A stretch of DNA of 36,958 nucleotides. It comes from a virus. Positions 10,430-25,698 of this stretch are shown piece by piece; position 1 is the stretch's first letter; each line of letters begins with the position of its first letter. Location of the stretch: positions 1 through 36,958 of IMG/VR virus record IMGVR_UViG_3300037487_000889; one strand, written 5' to 3'. Made by a program: the position numbers and the translations under genes. Under the pieces are notes generated by a model. It searched no databases. It saw only the letters and a program-made list of their open reading frames with translations, and was not told the origin of the DNA.

Positions 10430-10992
10430 ATATCAAATGCGTCTTTTTTGACTTTCTTTTTTCTTTTGGTTTTCTTTGGAGCACACATATCTTCAAACCG
10501 CTCCATGTCAAGATCTGTTAGACCAAAAAAGTCTCTACGACCAACATCTATTCCTGCGTAGGTTTCATTAAACCAGTTATGGAAGTCTTTGTTGTTTTGT
10601 TGCTCTGCAAACTTGTACTGAACAAATTTTTCTTTCTTTTCCTTGTTTATGATACGAACAAAAGAAAACCAGCATATTTGGGTTAAATAACCAAATGGGC
10701 TGGTTGAAAGCTTTGGATCAAAATTGTCAATATAAGTTATGCAGTTTAAAACTCCATCAGAAACCATTTCTTCTCTATATGGATAGTTTGCAAAATTTGG
10801 TCTGTATGAAAGTCTAGTTGCTATCTTTAGAATGCATTCACCTATGTAATCTGGTAGTTTTGGTTTTTTTCTACCAGCATCTTCAGCTTCTTTGCATTTC
10901 TTTTTATATTCAACCAAAGCTTCATATAGAGCTTGATTATTCACATAATCAGCATCTGATGGTTTGGATTTCTTTTTCTTTGGTTTTTTCAC
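10426..10992 (-). CDS. 55: Late-transcription sigma factor (gp55)
   Basis: gp55 is the minimal sigma factor that lets host RNA polymerase read TATAAATA-type late promoters. The block DYVNNQALYEALVEYK, RPNFANYPYREEMVSDG, FDPKLSTSPFGYLTQICW and FVRIINKEKKEK aligns with T4 gp55 ([56 protein letters not shown]). It has 188 residues against 185 in T4, with Lys-rich N- and C-terminal tails. The start is GTG at 10990-10992. An in-frame stop lies only 12 nt upstream and no ATG precedes the conserved region, so GTG is the only plausible common start. It has no visible Shine-Dalgarno sequence and sits 6 nt after a -10 element. Its predicted targets are the late motifs listed here. Confidence 0.93.
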   Translation of the reverse strand: MKKPKKKKSKPSDADYVNNQALYEALVEYKKKCKEAEDAGRKKPKLPDYIGECILKIATRLSYRPNFANYPYREEMVSDGVLNCITYIDNFDPKLSTSPFGYLTQICWFSFVRIINKEKKEKFVQYKFAEQQNNKDFHNWFNETYAGIDVGRRDFFGLTDLDMERFEDMCAPKKTKRKKKVKKDAFDI

Positions 10993-10998
10993 AGTGGT

Positions 10999-11026
10999 AT
11001 TATATCATTTATTTTTTAAAAAGCAA
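10999..11026 (-). promoter_or_regulatory. Sigma70-like promoter for the 55-47-46 unit
   Basis: The -35 TTGCTT (complement of 11021-11026), a 16-bp spacer and a perfect -10 TATAAT (complement of 10999-11004) are visible. The -35 overlaps the end of the dehydratase gene. The -10 ends 6 nt before the GTG start, which predicts a leaderless or nearly leaderless gene 55 mRNA. Confidence 0.6.
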
Positions 11027-11996
11027 ATTTATTTAATTTATTTAACCAATATGAAACCATCTCTTCCATCATAGAATCAAATGAAATCTTGGGTTGCCAT
11101 TTTAACTCTGTTTTTGCTTTACTTGAATCACCAAGCAAATAATGAAGTTCTTCTGGTCTCATATATTTTTTATCTGTTTCTAGATATTTTTTATAATCTA
11201 AATCCAAATAAGTAAATACTTTTTCTACCATGTTTAATACCGTTCTTGTTTGGCCAGTAGCTAGCACATATGTTTCTGGCTTTTCTTTTTGCAACATCAA
11301 CCACATACCCTCAACATAATCTTTTGCGTGGCCCCAATCTCTTTTTGCTTCTAAATTTCCAAGCACCAACCTATCAGATAACCCTAATTTTATTTTTGCT
11401 GCTTCTAAAGCAACTTTATTTGTTACAAAGTTTATACCTCTTCTTGGTGATTCATGATTAAATAAAATTCCAGAACAAGCAAAAATACCATAAGATTCTG
11501 AATAATTTCTACACAATGTGTGTGCATATAATTTTGCGCAACCATATGGACTTACTGGTATCATTGGAGTTGTTTCTCTTTGATACCCATCAGAATCTTT
11601 TGAGTTACCAAACATTTCAGAAGTTCCAGCGTGATATATCTTGCTATGTGGTGAAAAACGTCTAACTGCTTCTAATACCGTTAGAGTTCCATTTCCATTT
11701 ACTTCCAACGTATAATGAGGCAAATCAAATGAAATTTGCACATGTGATTGCGCAGCTAAATGGTATATTTCATCTGGGTTACTTTTTTGTATGACACTTT
11801 GTATGCTTAGTGGATCTGTTAAATCTGCATAACACATTTCTATATCATTTTTAATATGATCTATTCTTGTCGTTTGAGATTCGGGAACAGAATTTCTTCT
11901 TATTGTACCGTAAATTTTATAATTTTTATTTAATAAAAATTCTGCAAGATATGATGCATCCTGTCCATTTGCACCGATTATTAAAGCTTTTTTCAT
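11016..11996 (-). CDS. gmd: GDP-mannose 4,6-dehydratase
   Basis: The enzyme converts GDP-mannose to GDP-4-keto-6-deoxy-mannose, the precursor of GDP-fucose, GDP-rhamnose and related sugars. Visible features are the Rossmann motif GANGQDAS (residues 8-15, family GxTGQDGS), AAQSHVQISFDLP, the catalytic set T125/E127 in AGTSEMFG with Y151 and K155 (PYGCAKLYAHT), and the family signature FNHESPRRGINFVT. These are specific for Gmd rather than generic epimerases. At 326 residues it is at the short end for the family. It is the last gene of the cassette, its start overlaps the preceding stop (ATGA), and it abuts the gene 55 promoter. A GT11 fucosyltransferase in the same cassette would use a product of this pathway. 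Confidence 0.94.
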   Translation of the reverse strand: MKKALIIGANGQDASYLAEFLLNKNYKIYGTIRRNSVPESQTTRIDHIKNDIEMCYADLTDPLSIQSVIQKSNPDEIYHLAAQSHVQISFDLPHYTLEVNGNGTLTVLEAVRRFSPHSKIYHAGTSEMFGNSKDSDGYQRETTPMIPVSPYGCAKLYAHTLCRNYSESYGIFACSGILFNHESPRRGINFVTNKVALEAAKIKLGLSDRLVLGNLEAKRDWGHAKDYVEGMWLMLQKEKPETYVLATGQTRTVLNMVEKVFTYLDLDYKKYLETDKKYMRPEELHYLLGDSSKAKTELKWQPKISFDSMMEEMVSYWLNKLNKFAF

Positions 11997-12895
11997 TTGT
12001 TTTTAATCCATTCTAAAACATCAATTTCGGGTTGCCAATTTAATATTTCTCTGGCTTTAAATATATTTGCATTTGTATGCCTACATTCTAGTGGCCTTTG
12101 TGGTAGAAAAGTATGTTTTGCTGTATTTGGTTGAATTGTGTGTGCAATATCATTTATAGAATAACTCTTTCCCGTTCCAATATTAATTGTCTCGCCGTAA
12201 AGAGATTTATTTAAATTGCAGGCTTTATAGTTTGCCTTTATAACATCCAATACATGTACAAAATCTCTTGTTTGCTCACCATCCCCAACTATTGTAAGAT
12301 TTTCTTTATTTAAATTTTGTTTTTCAAAAATTCCAATAACTGGAGCATATTGTCCTTTTGAAGGATTTCTTGGACCATATACATTAAAATATCGTAAACA
12401 AACTGTTTCTAAACCATACATCAAACCATAAAGCTTACAACATTGTTCTGCATGAAGCTTACTTAAAGAATATGGATTCAAACAATCTGAATTCATATTT
12501 TCGTTTTGCTGTCCAGCATTTGATCCATATATTGCAGATGTGCTAGATAAAATTAATTTTTTTACTTTGTGTTTTTTACAAAGATCTAGCATTGTTATAG
12601 TTCCCATCATATTACTTTCAAATGCTTTACTGGGATCATTTATACAGTTGGTTATTCTTGCTTCTGCTGCAAAATGTAGTACAAAATCTGGAAGATGTTT
12701 TTTAAAAACATCTGAACACATGGTGTAATCATTTACGTTATAATGATAATATTTTGCTGCGTGATTATAATAAAAAGAATCGTGTGCGTCCGATGACAGG
12801 TCATCAATAACACATACTTCGTGGCCTTTATTTACTAAGTAATCAACAGCATTTGAACCTATAAACCCACAACCCCCTGTAACCAAATATTTCAT
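11993..12895 (-). CDS. NAD-dependent sugar epimerase/dehydratase, UDP-hexose 4-epimerase type
   Basis: This is an extended short-chain dehydrogenase acting on a nucleotide sugar. It shows TGGCGFIGS (residues 6-14), the IDDLSS segment that follows beta-2 in GalE-like enzymes, HFAAEARI, the catalytic SST (118-120) and YSLSK (Y142, K146), RYFNVYGPRNP and GDGEQTRDFVHV. The pattern is closest to UDP-glucose/UDP-N-acetylglucosamine 4-epimerases and dTDP-glucose dehydratase relatives. The exact substrate cannot be read. Length is 300 residues. It overlaps both neighbours by four bases (ATGA), indicating tight coupling in the cassette. Confidence 0.88.
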   Translation of the reverse strand: MKYLVTGGCGFIGSNAVDYLVNKGHEVCVIDDLSSDAHDSFYYNHAAKYYHYNVNDYTMCSDVFKKHLPDFVLHFAAEARITNCINDPSKAFESNMMGTITMLDLCKKHKVKKLILSSTSAIYGSNAGQQNENMNSDCLNPYSLSKLHAEQCCKLYGLMYGLETVCLRYFNVYGPRNPSKGQYAPVIGIFEKQNLNKENLTIVGDGEQTRDFVHVLDVIKANYKACNLNKSLYGETINIGTGKSYSINDIAHTIQPNTAKHTFLPQRPLECRHTNANIFKAREILNWQPEIDVLEWIKNK

Positions 12896-13983
12896 TGCGT
12901 AGCTTCTTCTAAAATTTTTATTATTTTTTCCATGTTAATATCAATACTCAATTCATTTTCAAATCTATTTTTTGAATTTATTGATCTTTCACTATAATAA
13001 TTTTTATTAAATTGAAGTTTTTTCATTTCTTCAGCATATTCTTCTTCATTTAAACAGACCACACCACCATCCCCAATTGTTTCTATATGTCCCATATTGG
13101 GTGATATGTGGGATATAACTGGCAATCCATACGACATTCCTTCCGCAATAGCCTGTCCATATGTTTCTCCATCTGCCCTTCCATGAGCATATACATCCAA
13201 AGTTCTTAAAAAATTATTTAAATTTAATGTATTTGAAGAATGATCAACAAAAAATACATTTTTTAAATTTAAATTTTTTGCTTGAATTTTGTATTTGTTG
13301 CCACCACCCATAATGACAAAAGCTGTGTTATCATTTTCTATCTTACTATAAGCCATTAAAGGAATAGGAGAAAAAATATTGTCATCATTTCTTTGATGCA
13401 TTCCAAAAATAAATTTATTATTTAAATTAAATTTAATTTTAAAATTTTCACCGGGCTCTGCTTTATGTTCCGTAAAAAGATAAACAACTTCAGATTTAGA
13501 TTTATCACCCCCAGCATTTAACCAAGATGATTCTTGAAATTTTGAAATGTGTATATATTTTTTAACGTTTTCTTTTATTTCTGCCATTCCAGCTAAAGTT
13601 ATAAAAGCAACTTCCGGTATATCGTTTATTTTATAAAATGGATATTCGGGGTGGCCAGCTCTTGCTGATAAGACTAAATCATATTTTTTAGAATTAAATA
13701 TTTCCCAAAAATCAGTTTCAACCCATTCATGTGTTTCTGTCTGAAGATTTTTTGCTTTTACATTAATTTTTTTTAAATTTATGTTATTATCTATCATATA
13801 TTGTTTTCTATCGGGATCTGTATCAGGATGAACCCAATTGGATCCAATATATGGTGCACTATCTGTGTATAGATAGTCTATTTCAAATTTATTTTTAGGT
13901 AAATTGGCAACAACCGTTTGAAACCATTTTTCTGTTCCACCGGCTGAAAGACCACCAAATTTAATTGATGCAATTTTTATCAT
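12892..13983 (-). CDS. GT4-like (GT-B fold) glycosyltransferase
   Basis: This 363-residue predicted retaining glycosyltransferase has a Gly-rich N-terminal loop (FGGLSAGGTEKWFQTVVANL). Its C-terminal nucleotide-sugar-binding domain contains FVIMGGGNKY, LDVYAHGRADGETYGQAIAEGMSYGLPVISH (the E-x7-E region of GT4 enzymes, in two parts) and IGDGGVVCLNEEEY. It is cytoplasmic by sequence, with no membrane segment. The donor and acceptor are unknown. Start and stop overlap the neighbours (TAATG upstream, ATGA downstream). Confidence 0.85.
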   Translation of the reverse strand: MIKIASIKFGGLSAGGTEKWFQTVVANLPKNKFEIDYLYTDSAPYIGSNWVHPDTDPDRKQYMIDNNINLKKINVKAKNLQTETHEWVETDFWEIFNSKKYDLVLSARAGHPEYPFYKINDIPEVAFITLAGMAEIKENVKKYIHISKFQESSWLNAGGDKSKSEVVYLFTEHKAEPGENFKIKFNLNNKFIFGMHQRNDDNIFSPIPLMAYSKIENDNTAFVIMGGGNKYKIQAKNLNLKNVFFVDHSSNTLNLNNFLRTLDVYAHGRADGETYGQAIAEGMSYGLPVISHISPNMGHIETIGDGGVVCLNEEEYAEEMKKLQFNKNYYSERSINSKNRFENELSIDINMEKIIKILEEATQ

Positions 13984-14591
13984 TATTTTTTCTTAAAAAG
14001 AATATCTTGTTGTAATAATTTTCCATTCCAGTGAAGATTATCTACAACACCTACTAGTGCATATCCAATAATATCCAAGTACTCTATAACTTCTGCTTGA
14101 GATGGTGCTCCTATATTATATCCCGAAACATCGGTTTCGGCAACAATAAGTTTTATTGTTTTTAGTGTATTGGAGCTACCCTTTAATATATCAAGTTCAC
14201 TACCTTGTGTATCAAGTTTAATAAAATCAAAATTAATATTTGGTTGAACTTCTGATAAAAGCAAATCAAGAGTTGTGGTTTCGACTTCTTCTTTTATTAT
14301 ATTGTCGTCAGAATAATGTTTTGTATTTTCTCGGTATAAAGAATTTCCTGTACAAATTAAATTTTCTTTAGTTTTATAAAAAATTTTTTTACCTTTTGTA
14401 TTTGACAAACAAGAGATAACCGAATTTGCATTTTTTTGTTTTAATACATATTCGCAATCTTTATTTGCTTCAATACTAAACACATAAACATCTGGTTTGA
14501 TGTTTTTTATAACATCTACATATTCGCCTATAAAAGCACCAACATCTAAAACATTTTTAACATCGTAATCGTAAATATATTTTTTTAACAT
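13983..14591 (-). CDS. FkbM family methyltransferase (first of three)
   Basis: This is an S-adenosylmethionine-dependent O-methyltransferase of the FkbM type, often found in glycan clusters where it methylates sugar hydroxyls. It shows the SAM-binding motif VLDVGAFIGEY (residues 15-25), FSIEANKDC (motif II acid), EVETTTLDLLL and the family hallmark FIKLDTQGSELDILKGS. Length is 202 residues. The hallmark segment resembles that of the FkbM enzyme at 18865-19488 (FINMDVQGYELEVLKGS), so two of the three may be paralogues. GGAA lies upstream of the ATG. Confidence 0.9.
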   Translation of the reverse strand: MLKKYIYDYDVKNVLDVGAFIGEYVDVIKNIKPDVYVFSIEANKDCEYVLKQKNANSVISCLSNTKGKKIFYKTKENLICTGNSLYRENTKHYSDDNIIKEEVETTTLDLLLSEVQPNINFDFIKLDTQGSELDILKGSSNTLKTIKLIVAETDVSGYNIGAPSQAEVIEYLDIIGYALVGVVDNLHWNGKLLQQDILFKKK

Positions 14592-14594
14592 TTT

Positions 14595-15581
14595 TTATTT
14601 CCAGTAAGAATATATTCCTTTTTCAACCTCGTAAAAATCCCATTTTTTTTGAATTTTATTTGGTTGTTTTGTTGCCCATTCCCACATTTTTGTTAAACCA
14701 TTTTTTAAATTTGTTTTATCTTCATATAAAAGTATATCTTGAGATTTTTTCCAAGTTGACCACGCATACTTTACTTCATGTCTTTCTTCAAGATAGGTTT
14801 TACTTCCATAACCCATAACTTCTAAAAGAATATCTGCTGCTTCGTTTATAGAATACTCTTGTATTCCTCCTAGATTTATTATTTGTTTTGATGCTATTGG
14901 GCTGGTTCCTGCTAACCACAATGGATTTAAACAATCGTCAATATAGCTAAAAGCTCGTTTTTGATCACCCGTTCCATATATTGTTATGGGTTTACCATTT
15001 AAATTTTGATACATCCAAATTCCCAAAACATTTCGGTATTTATCCCAAATATTTTGATTTTTTCCATAAACATTGTGTGGTCTTATTATACACCAATCTA
15101 ATCCATGTTGGACTCCGGCTATTTCAATGTCCTGCTCACATGAGGCTTTTGCTATACCATAAGGATCAATAGGATTTCTTGGTAAGGTTTCGTCAAATGG
15201 TGGTATAGAATCACCATAAACTGCCATCGATGATGTAAAAACTAATCTTTTTACATTATGATTAATACAATTATTAACAATGTTAGCTGTAGATAATAGA
15301 TTATTTTTGTAATTGAATTTACGAATAAATGGACTAAGACCTTCAGCTGCATAGGCAGCAAAATGATAAACTAATTCAGGTTTAGTTTCTTTAAAAATTT
15401 TATCAATCTTTTCGTCTAAACAATCATATTGAAAAAATTTAATTCTAGGATCAATATTTTCTTTATATCCCCCACTCAAATCGTCTATACCTATTACGTT
15501 TATTTTGTTATTTTGTTCTAATAACCAAGAAGAAAATCTTGAACCAATGAGACCGGCCACACCTGTTACTAATATATTCAT
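14595..15581 (-). CDS. NAD-dependent nucleotide-sugar epimerase/dehydratase
   Basis: This extended SDR enzyme shows NILVTGVAGLIGS at the N-terminus, GIDDLSGGY, VYHFAAYAAEG, the catalytic TSSMAVYG and YGIAK, RPHNVYGKNQ and GTGDQKRAFSYIDD, all matching the GalE/UDP-sugar epimerase class. The substrate is not determinable. The open frame extends 13 codons further upstream to a non-ATG codon. The ATG at 15579-15581 is preferred because it follows AGGAA by a normal spacing, lies one base after the upstream stop and begins directly with the Rossmann strand. The resulting protein has 328 residues. Confidence 0.87.
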   Translation of the reverse strand: MNILVTGVAGLIGSRFSSWLLEQNNKINVIGIDDLSGGYKENIDPRIKFFQYDCLDEKIDKIFKETKPELVYHFAAYAAEGLSPFIRKFNYKNNLLSTANIVNNCINHNVKRLVFTSSMAVYGDSIPPFDETLPRNPIDPYGIAKASCEQDIEIAGVQHGLDWCIIRPHNVYGKNQNIWDKYRNVLGIWMYQNLNGKPITIYGTGDQKRAFSYIDDCLNPLWLAGTSPIASKQIINLGGIQEYSINEAADILLEVMGYGSKTYLEERHEVKYAWSTWKKSQDILLYEDKTNLKNGLTKMWEWATKQPNKIQKKWDFYEVEKGIYSYWK

Positions 15582-15582
15582 T

Positions 15583-16338
15583 TTAAATTTCCTGTATATT
15601 ATCTCTATACCATTTTTCACATGGATATAGATTTAAATTTTTATATTCATCATTCATGCAAACAGTATAATCAAATCTACCCCGATAGCCATTTTCATTT
15701 TTATAATATTTTTTATTAAATAGCCACGCTCTATTAAATGCAGAATATTTTCCATTTACTTTTTTAATATTTTGTAAATTGTAGTCCGATGTATCAACAA
15801 CATTTAAAACAGAATCTAAATTAAAATTTGCTATGGGTTTATTATAATGTTGTTCCCATCTCCATAACCAATCACCATCTTCTTCACCTATACCTATTAA
15901 ATGTTCATCAAAATAGCCAATATCATTAATATCATTTCTATTTACACAAAAATGAGAAAAACTATTATTTATAGTAAATGAGCTGGGGTTTGATGCAATT
16001 ATATTTTCAATGTCCTTAAAAAATTTGTCTGAAATAACTATATCATCATTTAAAAGTAAAATATAATCTGAACTACTATAATTTATACAAGTATTCCACA
16101 TGAATGAACATCCACGAAAAAATGGAGATACTATTGGATAGGTTTGATTTAATGAACTTATAATTTGTAATATATTTTTTTTATATTCTTTATTAAAAGT
16201 TTCTTTGTGTTGGCCATTTATAAAAATTATTTTTTCTGTATCTGGTTTTAATTGATTTATATTAGAAATTAAAGGTAAAAAATAATTTTTATATCTATTT
16301 AAAAAAGTACATACGCAAATTGTATAATTTTTATTCAC
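15583..16338 (-). CDS. GT2-like glycosyltransferase (251 aa)
   Basis: The N-terminal YTICVCTFLNRYKNY, the central YILLLNDDIVISDKFF (the GT-A DxD-type site, here NDD) and the acceptor-side GEEDGDWLWRWE motif (GT2 ED motif) support a GT-A glycosyltransferase. It is short and probably soluble. The start is GTG at 16336-16338, overlapping the upstream gene by 8 bases, with GGAAAA about 10 nt upstream. No alternative ATG exists before the conserved strand. Donor and acceptor are unknown. Confidence 0.8.
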   Translation of the reverse strand: MNKNYTICVCTFLNRYKNYFLPLISNINQLKPDTEKIIFINGQHKETFNKEYKKNILQIISSLNQTYPIVSPFFRGCSFMWNTCINYSSSDYILLLNDDIVISDKFFKDIENIIASNPSSFTINNSFSHFCVNRNDINDIGYFDEHLIGIGEEDGDWLWRWEQHYNKPIANFNLDSVLNVVDTSDYNLQNIKKVNGKYSAFNRAWLFNKKYYKNENGYRGRFDYTVCMNDEYKNLNLYPCEKWYRDNIQEI

Positions 16339-17257
16339 GTGGCTGTTTTCCTGTTTTTTCTAAAAATTTATTATACAATTGTGGAATATGCCATATTTGC
16401 AAATTTTCAAAATATTCAACACCATGTTCATCAAACATTTTATATATTGCTGGCAATAAATCTTTTCTTACAAAATACTTTTCCTCCCAGTTTAAATCAT
16501 TATTTGGTAAATTTGGTATAGGTATATTTTGAATCCATTCAATTGGCATTTTTTGTAAACCTACATTTTCATCCATCAAAGTAATGCTGTAAGTAGAATT
16601 TATACTACTGGCATTTTCTTTTCCACGAACTACTAATTCACAACATTTATACCAACATTGTTTTAGCTGAAAAGTATTCCATAATGAAAATTGATAATGC
16701 AAAACAGCACCATATTCTGAAGGAAGATGCATCCAAGTATTTGCATTGCTCCCCGGAGTTCTTCCAACTGTGTGTGAAGAAATACCATCCCAAGAATAAG
16801 ATAATTCTGGAGAATCACAAATTATAAAATCTTTCCAATTATTGCTCCACGGGGTATTGTCATGCCTGAAATGATCATAGCTTTTCCACAAAGCCAACCA
16901 CTGCATTGCCAATTTTTGTCCGGGTTTTAATTCTGATATTATTTGCCTTGCATTACTTAAAAAATTGGTAGTAAATGTTTCATCGGCATCTAACATTATA
17001 AAATGAGTGCCACCAATTTCTCTTCCTTTTTGAAGAAGAATATCTCTGTGTGTTTTTGAAACACTCCATTCTTTTGGTTTAAGTTCAGAATTTAAACTTA
17101 ATACAGTTACTCCAGCATTTTTTAAGATGTTTGCTGAATTGTCTGTTGAATTATCGTCCAATGCAATTATTGCATCGCTTACTGGCTTAACATTTGACAA
17201 AAATGTTGGAAGAATCCATTCTTCATTTTTAAACGGCAATAAAGTTACTATTTTCAT
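16331..17257 (-). CDS. GT2 family glycosyltransferase (308 aa)
   Basis: MKIVTLLPFKNEEWILPTFL, ALDDNSTDNSANIL and FIMLDADETFT are the three N-terminal hallmarks of GT2 enzymes (nucleotide-binding strand, DDxSTD and DxD). The C-terminal half is rich in Trp and aromatic residues (WLALWKSYDHFRHD, HYQFSLWNTFQLKQCWYKCC), typical of acceptor-binding regions. No Shine-Dalgarno sequence is evident, but the gene overlaps the upstream GT2 gene by 29 bases, so it is probably translated by coupling. Confidence 0.87.
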   Translation of the reverse strand: MKIVTLLPFKNEEWILPTFLSNVKPVSDAIIALDDNSTDNSANILKNAGVTVLSLNSELKPKEWSVSKTHRDILLQKGREIGGTHFIMLDADETFTTNFLSNARQIISELKPGQKLAMQWLALWKSYDHFRHDNTPWSNNWKDFIICDSPELSYSWDGISSHTVGRTPGSNANTWMHLPSEYGAVLHYQFSLWNTFQLKQCWYKCCELVVRGKENASSINSTYSITLMDENVGLQKMPIEWIQNIPIPNLPNNDLNWEEKYFVRKDLLPAIYKMFDEHGVEYFENLQIWHIPQLYNKFLEKTGKQPRE

Positions 17258-18041
17258 TTTTTAATTTTGGTAAAAAAGTTTTTACATTAATTTTATTATT
17301 ATCAATTGATATGCTATCAATAGTATATTTTTTAGCATCTTCAATGTATTGTGGTTCAAGAATATTCAACCCATATCTAAGTTCTATAACAGTTCTTTCT
17401 AAAGGTTGTTTACTATTTGGTTTTGTGCTGGCACCCAATCCTTCATTTAAATAAAAACCAAGAATTTCTGGTATATGCAATCCTTTTCCATTAAATGCTA
17501 GTCTGAGAGCTAAATCAAAATCTGCACCAGAAACCAATTGTTCATCAAAAATTCCACTTTTTTGTAAAGCTGTTTTTCTAAACATAAAAAATGGCCCAAG
17601 TATCATACCTTTTGTTAAAAGATCTTCTTTTCCGCTTTCGTCTACCAAATACCCATATGTGGCTTTAAAAGCTGGTACTACAATGTAATTTCCGTAACAA
17701 AAATCAACATCCGGATTATTGTCCAGTGTTTTTGCCATCAACTCTATTGAATTTGGCGTTCTTAAATCATCAACGTTCCAAATACATAGGTATTCACCCT
17801 TTGCTTTATTTATACACCTATTCATAGAAACACCAATCGGATCAACTTTATCTACAACTATATGATTTACATTATCGTAACTGTATGATCTAACTAGTTG
17901 CTTTTCTTCTTCTGATGGCTCATTATGATCCAAAACAATTTCTAATTGATTAAAATACGTTTGGTTTGGTAATTCATCTAAAAAAGTTTTTAAATATTTT
18001 CCCATTTTATAACATGGAGTTATTGTACTTACTTTATACAT
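17229..18041 (-). CDS. GT2 family glycosyltransferase (270 aa)
   Basis: VSTITPCYKMGKYLKTFLDE, LEIVLDHNEPSEEE, AKGEYLCIWNVDDLRTPNSIEL (D-x-D site as NVDD) and the downstream GADFDLALRLAFNGK (catalytic-base region, normally ED) identify a GT2 enzyme. The middle segment LGPFFMFRKTALQKSGIFDE is typical of polysaccharide GT2 proteins. The start overlaps the upstream epimerase by 8 bases and the end overlaps the next GT2 by 29 bases. Confidence 0.9.
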   Translation of the reverse strand: MYKVSTITPCYKMGKYLKTFLDELPNQTYFNQLEIVLDHNEPSEEEKQLVRSYSYDNVNHIVVDKVDPIGVSMNRCINKAKGEYLCIWNVDDLRTPNSIELMAKTLDNNPDVDFCYGNYIVVPAFKATYGYLVDESGKEDLLTKGMILGPFFMFRKTALQKSGIFDEQLVSGADFDLALRLAFNGKGLHIPEILGFYLNEGLGASTKPNSKQPLERTVIELRYGLNILEPQYIEDAKKYTIDSISIDNNKINVKTFLPKLKNENSNFIAV

Positions 18042-18861
18042 TTTTATAATACTCCACTACTTTAGTAATTCCATCTTTTAATGATGTTTTGGGTTTCCAA
18101 TATTTTAAAATATTTTTATTTGGATCATTTTTTAAATTTTTTTGAACTTCATCTTTTTCTTTATTTGGAAAAATATCACAGGGTATTAATTCTTTTATAA
18201 TTTCTGCTACGTTTAAAATACTTACCCATTCAAAACTTGAAATATGATATTCTTCTTTTTTATTTAACTGTTCATATATTAATGACATTTGCCACAGACA
18301 TTCACAGCAATCTTCTGCGTATAAAAACTGTCTTTCTTCTGTGCCATCGGTCAGCATATCAATTTTTTTATTCTTTAATGCCTTTAAAATAAAATCTGTA
18401 ATTGCATGTGATTTTTCTAAGTCTTTTTCAATACCATAAACATTCCAAAAACGAACAACTAGACCTTCCAAGGCTTTTGTATAGAATTCTCCAATTCGTT
18501 TTAAAGTGCCATAAGAAGAATACTCCATTGCGGACATCTGAGATGATGCAAATAAAAATGGTTTTTTATATTTTTTAATGGAGCTAAACACAACATCCAT
18601 AATTTTACTATTGTTGTTTATGAATTCAAATGTATTTTGATATTGTTTTAGATAACGAGAACCACCAACATCAAAAGCCAAAAAATATACAAAATCACAT
18701 GTTTGTACTTCTACATCAAGAAGTTTATTATTATTGATTCTTAAATCTTGTTCGTAAGAATTTAAAATATCAAATTCTACAACTTCATGATTTTTACTTT
18801 TTAAAAACTGAACTAAATGATGTCCGATTTGACCAGAAGATCCTAATATTAAATATTTCAT
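18034..18861 (-). CDS. NAD(P)-dependent epimerase/reductase-like protein (275 aa)
   Basis: This divergent extended SDR has YLILGSSGQIGHHLVQFL at the N-terminus, YFLAFDVGGSRYL, a short catalytic SS (ASSQMS), YGTLK (Tyr-x3-Lys), VVRFWNVYG and GTEERQFLYAEDCCE. The AFDVGGS segment and the helix that follows are faintly like GDP-fucose synthase, which has AAKVGGI at that place. That enzyme is otherwise missing from the cassette although Gmd and a GT11 enzyme are present. This is speculation; any SDR activity on a nucleotide sugar would fit. Confidence 0.78.
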   Translation of the reverse strand: MKYLILGSSGQIGHHLVQFLKSKNHEVVEFDILNSYEQDLRINNNKLLDVEVQTCDFVYFLAFDVGGSRYLKQYQNTFEFINNNSKIMDVVFSSIKKYKKPFLFASSQMSAMEYSSYGTLKRIGEFYTKALEGLVVRFWNVYGIEKDLEKSHAITDFILKALKNKKIDMLTDGTEERQFLYAEDCCECLWQMSLIYEQLNKKEEYHISSFEWVSILNVAEIIKELIPCDIFPNKEKDEVQKNLKNDPNKNILKYWKPKTSLKDGITKVVEYYKNV

Positions 18862-18864
18862 TTT

Positions 18865-19488
18865 TTACTTCTTTGAATAAAATGCATCACCCCAACCATA
18901 CTCAGTCGGTGCAGTAAACAATCTTTTAAAACCAAATTGATTTAAGAAAGAATCAAGATCATCGGCTAAAACACAATTTTCATATAAATGTTCAAAATTA
19001 ATTTCTGTCATAATATGATCTACTAATTTTAATGTATTATGTGAACCTTTTAATACTTCAAGTTCATACCCTTGAACATCCATATTAATAAAATTGTAAA
19101 CATTCAAATTTACATTTTTTTCTTGTACATAATTGTCAAGTGTATTTTGATTTATTATTTTTTCTGATTCAAATTTGATGTGTGGATAATAATCTAAATG
19201 TTTTTGTGGTTTTAACAGAGAACAAGACATGGCTTGGTTAGCTGTTTCACAGTACATTGTTTTTGTACATTGTTCTGGTCCTAAAGCTACATTTTCTAAA
19301 ACTACATCAGTAGCAGAATCAAATTTATAAGTAAGTATTTTATATGAGTCTGGATGTGGTTCAAACAATATAGAAGGTATTTGTAATGCTCTATATACTG
19401 CTACCTCTTGGCCATGATGAGCGCCAATGTGCAAAGCACCATTAATTTTAAATCCACTGTTTATTATTTCGTATAAATTCATCAACAT
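18865..19488 (-). CDS. FkbM family methyltransferase (second of three)
   Basis: This SAM-dependent methyltransferase shows GALHIGAHHGQEVAVY (SAM-binding loop), SILFEPHPDSY (motif II acid), ENVALGPEQ and the FkbM hallmark FINMDVQGYELEVLKGSHNT. Length is 207 residues. ATGs occur at 19488 and 19482. The first is chosen because GAGG lies 8 nt upstream. It is probably an O-methyltransferase acting on a sugar of the product glycan; the substrate is unknown. Confidence 0.88.
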   Translation of the reverse strand: MLMNLYEIINSGFKINGALHIGAHHGQEVAVYRALQIPSILFEPHPDSYKILTYKFDSATDVVLENVALGPEQCTKTMYCETANQAMSCSLLKPQKHLDYYPHIKFESEKIINQNTLDNYVQEKNVNLNVYNFINMDVQGYELEVLKGSHNTLKLVDHIMTEINFEHLYENCVLADDLDSFLNQFGFKRLFTAPTEYGWGDAFYSKK

Positions 19489-19498
19489 ATAAAAATCC

Positions 19499-20122
19499 TC
19501 AAACTCTTGCTAAAATCATACCCCAAGCATCGCTATTTACATTTCTTTGATTTTCTATTACGGCGAGCAATTGTTCATAATTTAAAAATGTTTCTGGCAA
19601 CATTTTAGGATTGTAATCTCTACAACCATCATAAGAAACATTAAATTTAGAATAATTTAAATTTTTTAAATGGTTTAATACAGGCATAGAAACTGGATGA
19701 AACCATTCGTTAGCCCATTCAAACTGAATAGAAGTATTATATTGGTTTGTCATTCCAAAAATAGCTTTGTCTTCATAACCCTCAACATCTAATTTAATAT
19801 GATCAAAAATTCCATACTCTTCTACCAATTTATCTATTGTAGTCGTTTCAACTTCAATATAATTATTTGAATAATAACCATTAAATCTTCCAGAAGTTAG
19901 CCAGTTTTTATTTAAAGAAGAAACTGTGTCTGCTACAGCTAAATAAAAATTTAATTTATCTCCATAATTGTTTGATACTGCAATGTTTTTCCATATTACA
20001 TTTAAATCATCAAACGGGTTTTTTAATTGTAGATTTGCTTCTATTGCTACAACAAAATCATTTTTATCACAATAGGTTTTTATAAATCCACCGTTATTCG
20101 AACCAATATCTAAAATTTTCAT
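19499..20122 (-). CDS. FkbM family methyltransferase (third of three)
   Basis: KILDIGSNNGGFIKTY (SAM-binding loop), FVVAIEANLQ, NIAVSNNYGDKLNFY, EVETTTIDKLVEEYG and HIKLDVEGYEDKAIFG give the FkbM pattern. Length is 207 residues. It is more diverged from the other two in the C-terminal half. The translation start region AAAGGAAATATATGA is identical over 15 bases to that of gene 45. The ATG overlaps the upstream stop (ATGA). Confidence 0.88.
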   Translation of the reverse strand: MKILDIGSNNGGFIKTYCDKNDFVVAIEANLQLKNPFDDLNVIWKNIAVSNNYGDKLNFYLAVADTVSSLNKNWLTSGRFNGYYSNNYIEVETTTIDKLVEEYGIFDHIKLDVEGYEDKAIFGMTNQYNTSIQFEWANEWFHPVSMPVLNHLKNLNYSKFNVSYDGCRDYNPKMLPETFLNYEQLLAVIENQRNVNSDAWGMILARV

Positions 20123-20940
20123 ATATTTCCTTTAATATAATTAATATATTCATTTGCTTGTTTTTTTAATGTCAAATTATTTAGTATATATTCACGTGGT
20201 TTGTATGTGGATACTTTATTGTAAAATAATTCAAACTCATTTATACTATTGGATATGTAACCGCAGGTTTCCTCAAAATATGGAACGGACGTTGCCGGAA
20301 CCGCTACACCATAATCGTCCCATTCGTTTTTGTTAATGACAAAACATGGTTTATCCATAGATAAAATTTCTTGATATGCAATTCCTTGTGATTCTGTTTT
20401 TGTAAGAAGGACAACGCATTTAGAATAGTTTATTTTTTCTATAAACTCTTCTTCAGTATATTCACCATAAACCAATGTCGTATAAGATATTTTAAGTTGA
20501 TCAAAATAAGAAAATACTTCTTGAAGACTTTCTTTTTTATTTTTGCAATATATTAAAACATCATATTTTGGTGCATAATTAAAGTTGCAAAACTTTTTTG
20601 TATCTATTCCTACCGGCCACACATATATTTCTTTATTTTGAGTTAAAGAAAATGTTTTATACAAATCATAAACCCATTTACATGGAACATTAAATTTTTT
20701 ATATTTGGTCCAAACAAATGGCATTTCTGTAGGCAATACTGAAATATTTGGTCCAATAAACGCATTGTCCGGACAATCAAAAATATGTTTACATTGTGAC
20801 TGTAATACACCATTCAATTCACATATTTCATTAGGAACAACTTCTATATTTAATTCTTTTAAACCAGCAATAAGATTAGTAGTAACTTTTCCCGGACCAT
20901 TGTTGTTAGATGAAACAGAATAATGTAAACCTACTTTCAT
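20119..20940 (-). CDS. GT-B fold glycosyltransferase, GT4-like (273 aa)
   Basis: The N-terminal KVGLHYSVSSNNNGPGKVTTNLIAGL is a Gly-rich GT-B loop. IYVWPVGIDTKKFCNF and TKTESQGIAYQEILSMDKPCFV match the donor-binding region of GT4 enzymes (PxGID and the ESQG..x..E segment). It is shorter than typical GT4 proteins, mainly in the N-terminal domain. The frame is open upstream to a TTG, but the ATG at 20938-20940 is preferred because it overlaps the preceding stop (ATGA) as in its neighbours and leads straight into the first strand. Confidence 0.8.
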   Translation of the reverse strand: MKVGLHYSVSSNNNGPGKVTTNLIAGLKELNIEVVPNEICELNGVLQSQCKHIFDCPDNAFIGPNISVLPTEMPFVWTKYKKFNVPCKWVYDLYKTFSLTQNKEIYVWPVGIDTKKFCNFNYAPKYDVLIYCKNKKESLQEVFSYFDQLKISYTTLVYGEYTEEEFIEKINYSKCVVLLTKTESQGIAYQEILSMDKPCFVINKNEWDDYGVAVPATSVPYFEETCGYISNSINEFELFYNKVSTYKPREYILNNLTLKKQANEYINYIKGNI

Positions 20941-21725
20941 ATTACAACCCAACCTTTACAATAAACATCACTCCAGTTTTTTGGCATGTCTGGACCGTTG
21001 CCAAACCATTGTGATGGAGCTATAATTTTTTTGCTTTCGGAGAGCCATGCCCCCCACCAACTAAATGAACTGTTGGCAATAATATGATAATCACACATAG
21101 ACATTAAACACATATCAATATATTTATTATTGGTTTCTGGGAATACCATTTTTCTTTTTAATGGTTCAAAAATGGTTTGTGCTTTTGCCACATCATCACT
21201 AAAAATCATAAGCAACACATCATCTGGTAAAAGATCAAGAGCACTATTATAATAATCAATATTATATACGGGATGATTTTGTTGTTGATTTACATAATCT
21301 CCCAATCTTATATGCAATGATATTACACGATCTTTGGTAATGGCTCTAATATTTTCTGCTTGTTCTTTTATTTCATTTCTGAATGAAAATTGTTTTAGTA
21401 AATGTGGTCTGTAATCTACAAAATATTTTTCTGTTTGAAAATAACCAACAATATCTGAATGATCAGGAATACCAAACAATCCGGGGTTATATCCAAATTT
21501 TGGTTCAGCAATTCTATATTTTATTGGCTGTCCTTCAGAATTTTCTGCTTCCAGTTTGTCAAAAGCTTCGGTTAAGCAAAAATGTTCATACTCATTTTCG
21601 GATTTATTATTATATGGGACACCATATCTGTATTTTGCAGTTTTAGCTATACCAAATAAAGCAGCATATTGAAACATTTGATTTCCAAATCTGCCGTATC
21701 TTCCTATATTTGAATATGTAATCAT
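20937..21725 (-). CDS. GT11 family fucosyltransferase (alpha-1,2-fucosyltransferase-like)
   Basis: It transfers fucose, usually in alpha-1,2 linkage, from GDP-fucose. Diagnostic GT11 motifs are GRFGNQMFQYA (residues 11-21 of this start), ISLHIRLGDY (the HxRxGD motif) and IIANSSFSWWGAWLS. Length is about 262 residues, slightly below the usual 270-300. Two ATGs exist. The one at 21725 is chosen because it overlaps the upstream stop (ATGA) and matches the family N-terminus. An upstream ATG at 21752 would add nine residues. The enzyme connects to the Gmd at the other end of the cassette through GDP-deoxyhexose supply. Confidence 0.92.
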   Translation of the reverse strand: MITYSNIGRYGRFGNQMFQYAALFGIAKTAKYRYGVPYNNKSENEYEHFCLTEAFDKLEAENSEGQPIKYRIAEPKFGYNPGLFGIPDHSDIVGYFQTEKYFVDYRPHLLKQFSFRNEIKEQAENIRAITKDRVISLHIRLGDYVNQQQNHPVYNIDYYNSALDLLPDDVLLMIFSDDVAKAQTIFEPLKRKMVFPETNNKYIDMCLMSMCDYHIIANSSFSWWGAWLSESKKIIAPSQWFGNGPDMPKNWSDVYCKGWVVI

Positions 21726-22339
21726 GGTAATTCTATTGGAGTTTCGGTCCATATTTTATTTCTTGGACAATTTTGATAAAAATAAGGTTGTGCAGTACCA
21801 TATACATTAAAATTATTTTGAAGTTTTGCATAAACTACATCACAGTGTCTATTTCCTAATGCATCATAAAGATAAGTTTTGGCTTTAATTGCACATTCTT
21901 CTTTATATTTTTTTGATACATATAAAATTGCATGTGCCGATGTTACATTTTTTATTCTATAGTGTATTCCTTCTTTTACAGCATTTGCTGGAGAAGATAA
22001 TAAACTCATTTGAGCCCTAATTGGGTCTGCTGCCCAGTTACTGTATCCAAGGTACAATGCGTCAATATTTGGTGTCAAATCTATAATAGTATTATAGTAT
22101 TGAGATTCATGTACGTCATCTTCTAGAATTAAAATAGGTTCATCATTTAAATTATCATTTAAAACATTTATTTGAGATAACGCACAACCTTCAATATGAT
22201 CTCCAGTTTCTACACCATCATAAAAACACCAATTTTTAAAATTTAAACGTTCAGCCAATTCTTTAAAATTGTTTCTTCGTTCAATTGATTTTTTTAAACT
22301 TATACAAACAATTTTTGTATTTTGTAAATCAATCTGCAT
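21722..22339 (-). CDS. GT25-like glycosyltransferase (LPS biosynthesis type)
   Basis: IVCISLKKSIERRNNFKELAERL at the N-terminus and ILILEDDVHESQ (the EDD metal site) are the GT25 pattern seen in lipooligosaccharide galactosyltransferases. ALYLGYSNWA and the later AHAILYVSKKYKEE also follow that family. Length is 205 residues. The start lies 11 bases inside the upstream gene. Donor sugar is not determinable. Confidence 0.85.
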   Translation of the reverse strand: MQIDLQNTKIVCISLKKSIERRNNFKELAERLNFKNWCFYDGVETGDHIEGCALSQINVLNDNLNDEPILILEDDVHESQYYNTIIDLTPNIDALYLGYSNWAADPIRAQMSLLSSPANAVKEGIHYRIKNVTSAHAILYVSKKYKEECAIKAKTYLYDALGNRHCDVVYAKLQNNFNVYGTAQPYFYQNCPRNKIWTETPIELP

Positions 22340-22970
22340 AGTTAAATGGACTTGCTGGAGTGCTTCCCCACAGTTGTGTACAATACGGTTTAAATGCTCC
22401 GGTATATTGCAATCCCGTATAGTGTTGTGGAATAAAATAATGACTTGGATATATTGAAATATTGTTGTATCTTGTTTCGTGTATGGTTTTAGTCAAGAAT
22501 ACTGGTCCAACAGTTTTCCATGCTGTTAAATTTCCTTCCCAAAGACTGAATCCATCAAGAGCGTGCAATCTTTCTACCAAAGAATTTATTAATTCATTGT
22601 TTGGTGTTGCTGCAAGATAACCAGCAGCCACTAAATTTCCACGCAACCATTCATTTTCATAACAACTGAATGCATCATTTTCCAAGATATAATCATCTAA
22701 TGGTCTTAATGCAGTGCAATCAGCATCAAGAAAAAATCCTCCAAACTTTTGGAGAATTTCATAACGTGCAATATCGCACTTGCCATTCCATTCAGGCATG
22801 GCATCATATTGTGATTGATTATAAAGACCATTTGGAAAATGTTCCTTTAATGTTTCATCTGTCCAAAACATGTGAAGCCATGAAGGGTTTTTATCTTTCC
22901 AAGTTTGTATTTGTTCTAACGGTGGTTTTTTGGGTCCTACCCAAAGTTGGTGTAAAATTTTTGGAATCAT
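22329..22970 (-). CDS. GT32-like glycosyltransferase with DXD motif (Och1-type)
   Basis: MIPKILHQLWVGPKKPP and KCDIARYEILQKFGGFFLDADCTALRPLDD (read in two parts) are the hallmarks of the Gly_transf_sug/GT32 family: IPKIIHQ, the R-Y-x-x-L-x-x-x-GG helix and the DxD site (DAD). Length is 213 residues. This is the first gene of the 15-gene glycan cassette. The ATG lies about 8 nt from the predicted transcription start of the minus-strand promoter at 22985-23012, with GTGAG as a weak ribosome-binding site. Confidence 0.92.
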   Translation of the reverse strand: MIPKILHQLWVGPKKPPLEQIQTWKDKNPSWLHMFWTDETLKEHFPNGLYNQSQYDAMPEWNGKCDIARYEILQKFGGFFLDADCTALRPLDDYILENDAFSCYENEWLRGNLVAAGYLAATPNNELINSLVERLHALDGFSLWEGNLTAWKTVGPVFLTKTIHETRYNNISIYPSHYFIPQHYTGLQYTGAFKPYCTQLWGSTPASPFNYAD

Positions 22971-22984
22971 AAGATCTCACAGCT

Positions 22985-23012
22985 ATTATAAAGTATCAAA
23001 AACTAAAGTCAA
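22985..23012 (-). promoter_or_regulatory. Sigma70-like promoter for the glycan cassette
   Basis: The -35 TTGACT (complement of 23007-23012), a 16-bp spacer and the -10 TATAAT (complement of 22985-22990) are visible. It is the only promoter-like sequence I see ahead of the 15 cassette genes, which overlap or nearly abut throughout. It mirrors the uvsY promoter on the other strand. Confidence 0.7.
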
Positions 23013-23048
23013 ATATATTTATTTGACTATTACTAAAGATACTTTATA
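22987..23048. repeat. Nested inverted repeat formed by two back-to-back promoters
   Basis: The outer arms are TATAAAGTATC (22987-22997) and GATACTTTATA (23038-23048), perfect over 11 bp. The inner arms are AGTCAAATA (23007-23015) and TATTTGACT (23020-23028), perfect over 9 bp with a 4-nt loop. The arms coincide with the -10 and -35 regions of the divergent promoters, so the symmetry may be promoter duplication by inversion. It could also be the operator of a dimeric regulator or a cruciform. Confidence 0.8.
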
Positions 23049-23050
23049 TT
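23023..23050 (+). promoter_or_regulatory. Sigma70-like promoter for uvsY
   Basis: The -35 TTGACT (23023-23028), a 16-bp spacer and the -10 TATATT (23045-23050) are visible. The predicted start is near 23057, only about 6 nt before the uvsY ATG at 23063. The spacer ends with GATACTT just as in the divergent cassette promoter. Confidence 0.62.
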
Positions 23051-23062
23051 ACATCTCAAAAG

Positions 23063-23500
23063 ATGAATCTAGAGAACCTTAAAGAACTTATTACTAAAGA
23101 CTCTCAAATAGACTCTACTGAGTTAGGTATAGAGTCTCTTAAGATACCTCAAATACACGGAAAGTATCTTAATATTTTGACAGATCTTAAACTACTTTTG
23201 GCAAAACAACAAAATGACTTTGCCATCCATAAACTCCGTAGGTGGAAAATTTACACTGGAAAAGCTTCACAAGAAGAATTAGAAGAATGGAAAGAAGAAC
23301 CATTTGATCTAGGAATTCTTAAAACCGATGTTGATAAATTTATGGATGCAGATCCAAAACTTATTGAGTTAAAATCAAAAATTGTTCTCAATGAAGTAAA
23401 AGTAAAAATGGTAGAAGAATTTTTAAAAGCACTTAATAATAGAAATTTTACCATCAAGTCTGCTATTGATTGGCAAAAAATGATGAATGGCATCGTATAA
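23063..23500 (+). CDS. uvsY: UvsY recombination mediator
   Basis: UvsY loads the UvsX recombinase on gp32-coated single-stranded DNA during recombination-dependent replication. The N-terminus MNLENLKELITKDSQIDSTE corresponds to T4 MRLEDLQEELKKDVFIDSTK. HGKYLNILTDLKLLLAKQQNDF, then KLRRWKIYTGKAS, aligns with T4 YSKWLNKHSSIKKEM, then KARLDYYSGRGD. Length is 145 residues against 137 in T4. The ATG has only a weak ribosome-binding site. It is directly followed by uvsW, the same pair as in T4 though in the opposite relative order. Confidence 0.9.
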   Translation: MNLENLKELITKDSQIDSTELGIESLKIPQIHGKYLNILTDLKLLLAKQQNDFAIHKLRRWKIYTGKASQEELEEWKEEPFDLGILKTDVDKFMDADPKLIELKSKIVLNEVKVKMVEEFLKALNNRNFTIKSAIDWQKMMNGIV

Positions 23501-23503
23501 ATA
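23496..23503 (+). promoter_or_regulatory. Late promoter motif TATAAATA overlapping the uvsY stop codon
   Basis: This exact T4 late core contains the uvsY TAA stop (23498-23500) and ends 4 nt before the uvsW GTG. In T4 uvsW is a late gene, which makes a late promoter here credible. However, a transcript with T4 spacing would start at about the start codon itself. Confidence 0.5.
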
Positions 23504-23507
23504 TTGA

Positions 23508-25004
23508 GTGGATATAGATGTTGAATCTATTGATGAAGTAAGATACTATGTAAAGACAGAAAAGGGATTAAAACAAGAACTGAGAGATTACTTCTCATTC
23601 ATGGTCCCCGGAGCCCAATATATGCCTATGTTCAAGCGTAGGCTATGGGACGGAAAAATTCGTCTATACGATATACTTTCATCAACACTTCCAAGAGGTC
23701 TTAAGACATATCTTGAAAAGTTTTCCACAGATCGTGGCTACACCCTAAACATAAAAGAAACCAAAAATCCTTTATGCATCACGGACAAACAACTTCAGGT
23801 TTTTTACGAATCCTTGAAGGTTTCGGTTCGCAAACAGGCAGTGCAGATGCACGACCACCAAAAACAGGGTATCTTGCATGCATTGAACAATCATCGTTCG
23901 GTGCTAATATCACCAACTGGCTCCGGAAAAAGTCTTATTATATACGTCTTGGTTCGGTATCTGCAAAAGGTTATACCTACAGATCGCAAAATTTTAATTT
24001 TGGTTCCAACGGTCGGTCTAGTAAATCAAATGGAGTCTGACTTTTTTGATTACTCTGGACAAGACAAATCTTGGTCATGCAAAAAATACATACACAAGAT
24101 TACTGCTGGAGTTGAAAAAGAAACTAAACAACAGATAGTAGTTTCTACATGGCAATCAATTTACAAATTGCCAAAGCAATGGTTTGATCAATTTGATGCA
24201 GTATTCTTTGATGAATGTCATCAAGCAAAAGCCGAATCAATAAATTTTATTGGACAAAAGCTTTCAAAGGCTTGGTTTAGAATCGGCACAACGGGGACAT
24301 TACAACAAACACAAGCGCATAGATTGAGCATTGAGGGTATACTCGGTCCAGCTGTACAATTTATACACACAAAAAACCTAATGAATAAAGGTTTATTGGC
24401 AAAACTTGGTATAGATTGTTTAATTCTTAAATATAGTGACGAAGAAAAACAATTGTTGAAAAAACAAAAGTATGTTGATGAAATAAAATGGATCGTCACA
24501 AATGAAAAACGAAACGAATTCATCAAACAACTCGCGCTTCGAACCAAAGGGAATACCCTTATCCTCTTTAATTACGTCGAAACACATGGAAAACCGCTCG
24601 CAGCTCTCTTGGAAGCAGCGGGAACGGATAGAAAAATTTATCTTATACATGGAAAGACAGAAGCGGATGCAAGAGAAAATATCAGAAGAATCATTGACAA
24701 AGAAAAAGATGCAATCCTTGTTGCGTCCTTTGGTACTACTTCTGCTGGTATCAATATCGTCAATCTTGATAATATCATATTTGCTTCTCCTACTAAATCG
24801 GTAATAAGATTATTGCAAAGCATTGGTCGTGGTTTGCGAGTTTCTGAAAGAAAAAAGACATTAAAGGTTTATGATATTGTAGATGATCTTTCTTGGAAAT
24901 CTCATAAGAACCATGTATTAAAACACTTTGAAGAACGATTGAAAATATACAAGAAAGAAAAATTTGATTTTAAAATATGTTCAATGAGTTTTAACGACCT
25001 TTGA
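23508..25004 (+). CDS. uvsW: UvsW DNA/RNA helicase
   Basis: This superfamily 2 helicase unwinds R-loops and regresses forks, shutting off origin-dependent replication in favour of recombination-dependent replication. The N-terminal KQELRDYFSFMVPGA to RLWDGKIRLYD matches T4 (HELRDFFSFEADGY to GNWDGRIRLLD). Motifs are a Q-like HDHQKQGI (residues 115-122), Walker A SPTGSGKS (135-142), Walker B DECH (235-238), GTTGTL (260-265) and motif VI QSIGRGLR (437-444). Length is 498 residues against 503 in T4. The start is GTG, with no visible Shine-Dalgarno sequence. It is supported by N-terminal similarity (MDIDVESIDEVR against T4 MDIKVHFHDFSHVR). Confidence 0.95.
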   Translation: MDIDVESIDEVRYYVKTEKGLKQELRDYFSFMVPGAQYMPMFKRRLWDGKIRLYDILSSTLPRGLKTYLEKFSTDRGYTLNIKETKNPLCITDKQLQVFYESLKVSVRKQAVQMHDHQKQGILHALNNHRSVLISPTGSGKSLIIYVLVRYLQKVIPTDRKILILVPTVGLVNQMESDFFDYSGQDKSWSCKKYIHKITAGVEKETKQQIVVSTWQSIYKLPKQWFDQFDAVFFDECHQAKAESINFIGQKLSKAWFRIGTTGTLQQTQAHRLSIEGILGPAVQFIHTKNLMNKGLLAKLGIDCLILKYSDEEKQLLKKQKYVDEIKWIVTNEKRNEFIKQLALRTKGNTLILFNYVETHGKPLAALLEAAGTDRKIYLIHGKTEADARENIRRIIDKEKDAILVASFGTTSAGINIVNLDNIIFASPTKSVIRLLQSIGRGLRVSERKKTLKVYDIVDDLSWKSHKNHVLKHFEERLKIYKKEKFDFKICSMSFNDL

Positions 25005-25035: not shown

Positions 25036-25698
25036 ATGTCCGACACACTTCCTGAGAATGAATTCTCGGGCGCATTGCGAATTGTAAAGCTTACCTCCGG
25101 AGAAGAATTAATTGGAATGGTAAGCGAATCTGCGCCAGATAAAATAAACATAAAACTACCAGCTCTTTTAGAAAATTACTATACAAGAGGGCAAAAAAAT
25201 GAAATGGTAGAATATGTAAAACTTACAAATTATTTGTTAAATGTCAAAGGTTATGAAGTTAATCTTCCAAGATCTGTAATTGTTTATATTGGTATCCCGG
25301 CCACGGAATTGGAGAAAATGTACGAAGTATATTTTATGGCTATGCAATCCGATTCAAAAACAATTATAAGTTCTGGACCAGAAGATGAAATTGGTTCTGA
25401 AAATGGTTTGCAACTTTTGAATGATTTATTCAATAATCCAGATTTTGTAAATTTTGTAAATGATCTTATTGACAATTTTGAAGGTGTAGAAATATTAGAT
25501 GATTCTGATGATGAAGAGTGGGACGATATAGTTGCAGAATCGCCTATAAGCCCTCCGGAGGAAAAACCGTCCGAAGATGCTCCTAAGAAGAAGAAACGCA
25601 AGGCGATGAAGCCTGAAACGAATAAGCTACCTTATAAACCGGAAGCCAACCCAAATACTCCAGAGGGTTGGTCAGACAATCCACTAGACTACATTTAA
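25036..25698 (+). CDS. Sm-like-fold phage protein with acidic and basic C-terminal tail (220 aa)
   Basis: Residues 13-43 (ALRIVKLTSGEELIGMVSES, then INIKLPALLE) follow the Sm1 pattern of Sm/LSm/Hfq proteins, where a strand and the G-E-E-L-I-G turn lead to further strands. NLPRSVIVYIGIPA (residues 76-89) could be the Sm2-like strand pair. After a helical region comes an acidic stretch (residues 151-164, ILDDSDDEEWDD) and a basic cluster KKKKRK (184-189). Nothing more specific is recognised. The gene has a late-type promoter and a strong ribosome-binding site. It converges on the tube-like gene, the two stop codons overlapping. It may bind RNA or be a virion or assembly factor. Confidence 0.7.
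   Translation: MSDTLPENEFSGALRIVKLTSGEELIGMVSESAPDKINIKLPALLENYYTRGQKNEMVEYVKLTNYLLNVKGYEVNLPRSVIVYIGIPATELEKMYEVYFMAMQSDSKTIISSGPEDEIGSENGLQLLNDLFNNPDFVNFVNDLIDNFEGVEILDDSDDEEWDDIVAESPISPPEEKPSEDAPKKKKRKAMKPETNKLPYKPEANPNTPEGWSDNPLDYI

Follow-up and report, generated by a model that had tools for sequence, protein, structure and literature searches.

A predicted three-promoter hub between uvsY and a glycan gene cassette in an uncultured clade of T4-like phages

The region studied here separates two divergent gene blocks in a viral contig of 36,958 nucleotides (IMG/VR record IMGVR_UViG_3300037487_000889), which was analysed at its full length and is called the window below. To the right, on the plus strand, are uvsY (23063-23500; PHROG 231, E 2.5e-39), a gene for a uvsW-like helicase (23508-25004; PHROG helicase families) and a gene with a match to a 'methylamine utilization' PHROG (25036-25698). 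To the left, on the minus strand, a glycan cassette (11016-22970) contains glycosyltransferases, FkbM methyltransferases, epimerases and a GDP-mannose dehydratase according to Pfam. After the cassette come gp55, gp47, gp46, gp45 and gp44, among them homologues of the late sigma factor gp55 (10426-10992, minus strand; 52.6% identity over 116 amino acids to S-SSM7 gp55) and of the sliding clamp gp45 (6489-7160, minus strand; S-SSM7 similarity and Pfam). The assignment of gp55, gp47, gp45 and gp44 is based on similarity to S-SSM7, and that of gp46 on Pfam SMC/AAA matches together with its position. Both gp55 and gp45 are present in the window and in relatives G001-G003. Promoter-like hexamer pairs were seen by eye just upstream of gp55 in the window (10993-11040, minus strand) and in the same three relatives; gp55 probably has its own early promoter, and the leftward promoter near uvsY was rejected as its sole source because of these pairs.

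In the cultured phages compared (S-SSM7, S-SKS1, DSL-LC02, DSL-LC03, Mosig, HTVC008M, ACP17, P-SSM2, Sf-FS3 and S-BM3), uvsY is co-directional with its upstream neighbour, and in most of them the two genes overlap or nearly abut. The co-directional order in S-SSM7 is gp23, gp3, uvsY, uvsW, the methylamine-type gene, gp55, gp47, gp46, gp45 and gp44. Compared to this order, the uvsY-uvsW block of the clade is inverted relative to its neighbours and the glycan cassette lies between uvsY and gp55, so that a divergent intergenic region comes with the arrangement. The first cassette gene (22329-22970 in the window) varies among relatives and encodes a glycosyltransferase with a sugar-binding region, a protein of the MIIDLREIPVVWINLD type or one of the MSKLIIKFPTRNRP type. 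Despite this variation, the intergenic promoter region and the leader length are nearly constant, as if cassettes were exchanged at this border.

An earlier note on this DNA had described a pair of back-to-back sigma70-like promoters between the glycan cassette and uvsY, and the sequence is exactly as it was described. The leftward promoter (TTGACT-16-TATAAT, 11 of 12 consensus matches) has its -35 box TTGACT at 23007-23012 and its -10 box TATAAT at 22985-22990, both on the minus strand, and the rightward promoter of uvsY (TTGACT-16-TATATT, 10 of 12 matches) has its -35 box TTGACT at 23023-23028 and its -10 box TATATT at 23045-23050 on the plus strand. Both 16-bp spacers end in GATACTT, and the two -35 boxes within 22985-23050 are 10 bp apart. 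Both directions show TTGACA-like and TATAAT-like hexamers at the separation of 16-18 bp used here to define a sigma70-type promoter, and this spacing is retained in relatives. With transcripts of sigma70-type promoters beginning about 7 nt beyond the -10 box, the rightward early start is expected near 23057 and the leftward one near 22978, approximately 8 nt before the ATG at 22970; the sequence GTGAG at 22976-22980 on the minus strand (TGTGAGG in most relatives) probably serves the first cassette gene for ribosome binding. When both promoters were required to reach at least 10 of 12 matches with up to 12 bp between the -35 boxes, Markov-shuffled versions of the window contained a mean of 0.12 such pairs, and at least one was found in 10% of the shuffles. 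A pair of this quality is therefore modestly unlikely by itself, and conservation is the main evidence. An early promoter starting TTGACAGTCAAG, immediately followed by the -35 core in inverted orientation, is also conserved and recurs across the clade (G001 64695, minus; G003 10567, plus; G010 55614, minus; G004 8377, plus; G011 7764, plus).

Relatives were collected by UvsY/UvsW protein similarity and the motif was not used in their selection. With a threshold of at least 60% identity in UvsY, and with duplicate upstream stretches and one locus truncated at its edge set aside, 80 distinct relatives remained. All 80 contain GTCAA-n1-3-TATTTA[GT]-n0-1-TTGAC upstream of uvsY and thereby retain both -35 boxes and the centre, with 8, 9 or 10 bp between the boxes; because these phages share ancestry, such counts are not counts of independent events. 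A -10-like hexamer was found at 16-bp spacing on the left in 78 of the 80 and at 16-17 bp on the right in 79. The hexamer scores are flattered, as each is the highest over four spacings in a region rich in A+T, and the uniform spacing is the better evidence. Exact forms of the conserved core, which is GTCAAATATATTTATTTGAC in the window (23008-23027), occur in 114 of 2.9 million viral contigs in IMG/VR (the 20-bp core in 67 and a 19-bp core in 47). The core lies 30-72 bp upstream of uvsY in 113 of these contigs, the exception being L165, where no uvsY was seen. It is absent from UvsY relatives less than 47% identical, many of which have a rightward TTGAC-type promoter before uvsY, and a DNA similarity search of the region against cultured phages gave no match. 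The divergent promoter region is real and deeply conserved.

The same 20 bp contain a further element that the earlier note had missed, a T4-type late box ATAAATA read leftward (23022-23016, minus strand). Its complement TATTTA is invariant in all 80 relatives and either abuts the rightward -35 box or lies 1 bp from it, whereas the adjoining 1-3 bases vary. TATTTA has a direction, and its leftward reading corresponds to [AC]TAAATA, the late-promoter motif of the clade. This motif emerged from a count of k-mers upstream of genes in the window and three long relatives (137, 136 and 117 kb) that involved no prior choice of motif: ATAAATA was observed 43 times upstream of genes compared to 5.7 expected and 18 in reversed orientation, and CTAAATA 21 times compared to 2.9 expected and 6 reversed. 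Words containing TTGAC were also prominent in this count. In the window, late boxes precede gp23, gp22, uvsW, a terminase gene and other late-type genes. A 7-bp A+T-rich motif is easily met by chance, and the weight of the box near uvsY lies in its conservation in 80 of 80 relatives, all of them related phages.

Published late motifs agree with the box of the clade (PMC2984593, PMC1524935, PMC2988020). The late motif of S-PM2 is NATAAATA (PMC2984593), and that of Aeh1 is CTAAATA and starts at -12 (PMC1524935). The window resembles these systems and T4 (TATAAATA) in having an [AC]TAAATA box of the NATAAATA/CTAAATA kind, in encoding both gp55 and gp45, and in carrying such boxes before capsid and tail genes. 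The clade differs from T4 in having A or C at -12, as do S-PM2 and Aeh1, and its start sites are predicted ones. Given that the motif is enriched and conserved and that gp55 and gp45 are encoded, the core probably contains a leftward T4-type late promoter, whose start would be expected near 23010 with a leader of approximately 40 nt. A rightward late box serving uvsY was rejected, as the interval from the core to uvsY lacks one in all 80 relatives. In addition, of 40 distinct uvsY/uvsW junctions, 39 have an [AC]TAAATA that overlaps the stop codon of uvsY immediately ahead of uvsW (ATAAATA at 23495-23501, plus strand, in the window); transcription from it would begin at the start codon of uvsW or just before it, which may leave the uvsW message with almost no leader.

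It might be argued that the region holds two ordinary divergent early promoters only, and that TATTTA is an A+T-rich, UP-like stretch shared by them rather than part of a late promoter. Pairs of this plain kind do exist in the clade: the divergent early pairs at G001 101805-101864 (GTCAA-TTAA-TTGAC) and G003 53049-53107 (GTCAA-TAG-TTGAC) leave only 3-4 bp between their -35 boxes and contain no late box there. However, an UP-like stretch would account poorly for a TATTTA that is invariant in 80 of 80 relatives always within 1 bp of the rightward -35 box and that is oriented relative to genes genome-wide, and we regard this explanation as unlikely.

The earlier note had also drawn attention to the symmetry of the region. 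An inverted repeat is indeed present (22984-23051), with 32-nt arms at 22984-23015 and 23020-23051 that are 75% complementary and separated by a 4-nt gap, and no palindrome of 24 matches in 32 with matching inner 5-mers was obtained in 10 Markov shuffles of the window. The note had attributed this symmetry to inverted duplication or to a symmetric regulatory site, and comparison with relatives supports neither. An origin of the repeat from a single promoter duplicated in inverted orientation is suggested by the likeness of the window's arms over GATACTTTATA, with 16 of 25 positions shared between the left and right promoters, but 11% of cross-contig pairs reach the same value. Across relatives, the likeness of left and right promoters within a contig is no higher than the cross-contig level (12.2 compared to 11.8 of 25 positions; permutation p = 0.10), and the arms do not co-vary. 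The outer-arm match is nearly private to the window, and a duplication is almost certainly not the origin of the symmetry.

A dimeric regulator of phage or host origin, binding GTCAAATA-TATT-TATTTGAC and controlling both promoters jointly, would be compatible with the commonest form of the core, a perfect palindrome with invariant 8-bp arms, and with two rare forms (L285 and L235) that are symmetric using other bases. Nevertheless, the bases immediately inward of the -35 boxes are symmetric in 48 and asymmetric in 32 of the 80 distinct relatives, the spacing of the arms shifts by 1-2 bp, and the conserved centre TATTTA has a direction. With the arms not co-varying, the dyad symmetry of an operator for such a regulator is not what has been preserved; given the asymmetric cases and the 8-10 bp between the -35 boxes, strict symmetry is not the conserved property. 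Among the core-bearing contigs of IMG/VR, no second location of the exact core was found, and there is thus no sign of a regulon. Joint control by a dimeric regulator therefore appears very unlikely, and differential timing, with early transcription in both directions and late transcription leftward only, is a better account than the single regulator that the note had envisaged for the glycan and recombination genes. The symmetry is, as judged from these comparisons, mostly an incidental by-product: the inner palindrome arises because back-to-back -35 boxes flank an A+T-rich late box, and the outer-arm symmetry, which is not found in relatives, is a coincidence of one genome, that of the window. 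No other good copy of the outer GATACTT arms, as would be seen for a repeated phage motif, occurs within the window.

The combination of a late box and an early promoter facing away from each other is not restricted to the uvsY site. In the three long relatives, 15 of 71 strict early promoters have an outward-facing late box 0-11 bp upstream of TTGAC and none has one at 12-33 bp; since some of the 15 are orthologous, they represent fewer independent loci, about seven or eight as counted by eye. Similarly, 11 clade genomes together contain TATTTAK-n0-4-TTGAC 30 times, compared to 2 for the reversed control, with the uvsY site itself contributing about one match per genome. The pattern is not enriched in nine cultured relatives, where it occurs once compared to 11 for the reversed control. 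It was previously reported that T4-like phages without MotA (RB49, S-PM2 and Syn9) have overlapping early and late promoters, and the presence of both on one gene was proposed to substitute for MotA control in RB49 and S-PM2 (PMC2984593). The clade is similar in that a single gene unit is served by both early sigma70-type and late NATAAATA-type boxes, a combination proposed to stand in for middle mode. It differs in that two early promoters pointing outwards enclose the late box, which stands back to back with one of them, whereas in the reported cases both promoters are described upstream of the same gene, and also in the nearly fixed 8-10 bp between the -35 boxes. No paper on back-to-back early/late phage promoters like this unit was found in a literature search. 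The arrangement is a variant of the known T4-type overlapping early/late control.

Taken together, these features point to a compact three-promoter hub in this uncultured T4-like clade, with an early rightward promoter for uvsY and an early and a late leftward promoter for the glycan cassette, at which late leftward and early rightward initiation would exclude each other; we consider this model, built from sequence comparison, likely. In the early phase of infection, the sigma70 polymerase of the host would read uvsY to the right and the glycan cassette to the left. The earlier note had argued that polymerases could not easily occupy both sites and that the two units may be mutually exclusive; overlapping early footprints are indeed to be expected, and initiation would thus probably proceed in one direction at a time, although the exclusion itself is something we infer. 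Once gp55 and gp45 are made, the late polymerase would start leftward near 23010, a position within the -35 box of the leftward early promoter. The activated late complex of T4 carries the gp45 clamp at its upstream end, and the clamp lengthens the footprint by 13 bp (PMC2988020). In the hub, the upstream end of such a complex would cover the -35 box of the rightward early promoter, and late leftward and early rightward initiation should therefore exclude each other. The ribosome-binding site would lie at the end of a leftward early leader only about 8 nt long, so that translation may be more efficient from the late transcript. A more far-reaching version, which we put forward tentatively and consider rather unlikely, is that the core acts as a directional switch: gp55-RNA polymerase and the gp45 clamp on the late box would physically shut the rightward early promoter, so that new uvsY transcription stops as late surface-glycan transcription begins, and the back-to-back late/early units at several divergent loci of the clade would substitute for a middle-mode regulator.

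The location of the hub raises the alternative that it is a replication origin like T4 oriF, ori(uvsY), at which the promoters make primer RNA. An origin of the oriF type would combine a promoter with an A+T-rich unwinding element. In T4, oriF is found at the promoter of uvsY, active origins sit at transcription strand switches, and UvsW, made from a late promoter, unwinds R-loops (PMC3016281). The clade is similar in that the promoter region upstream of uvsY is at a strand switch and uvsW has its own conserved late box, and it differs in the early-type promoter of its uvsY. GC skew was rejected as a sign of an origin, since the cumulative curves of G001 and G002, the two longest relatives, show no extreme there (the G003 contig ends at the site), and the conserved bases are explained without an origin. 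An origin at this site seems very unlikely, and the three-promoter hub is the reading followed here.

Cyanophage-type T4 relatives lack MotA and AsiA, and the timing of their middle genes is an open question (PMC2984593); for the related pelagimyophages, attempts to predict middle and late promoters are reported to have failed (PMC7029224). The present analysis provides a simple promoter grammar from an uncultured clade, with TTGAC for early and [AC]TAAATA for late promoters, often placed back to back within 0-11 bp. One site of this grammar is conserved in every close relative examined and yields precise predictions of start sites. At this site, approximately 90 bases probably time both a block of sugar-coat genes and a recombination gene, and the hub marks the border between variable glycan genes and the conserved genome.
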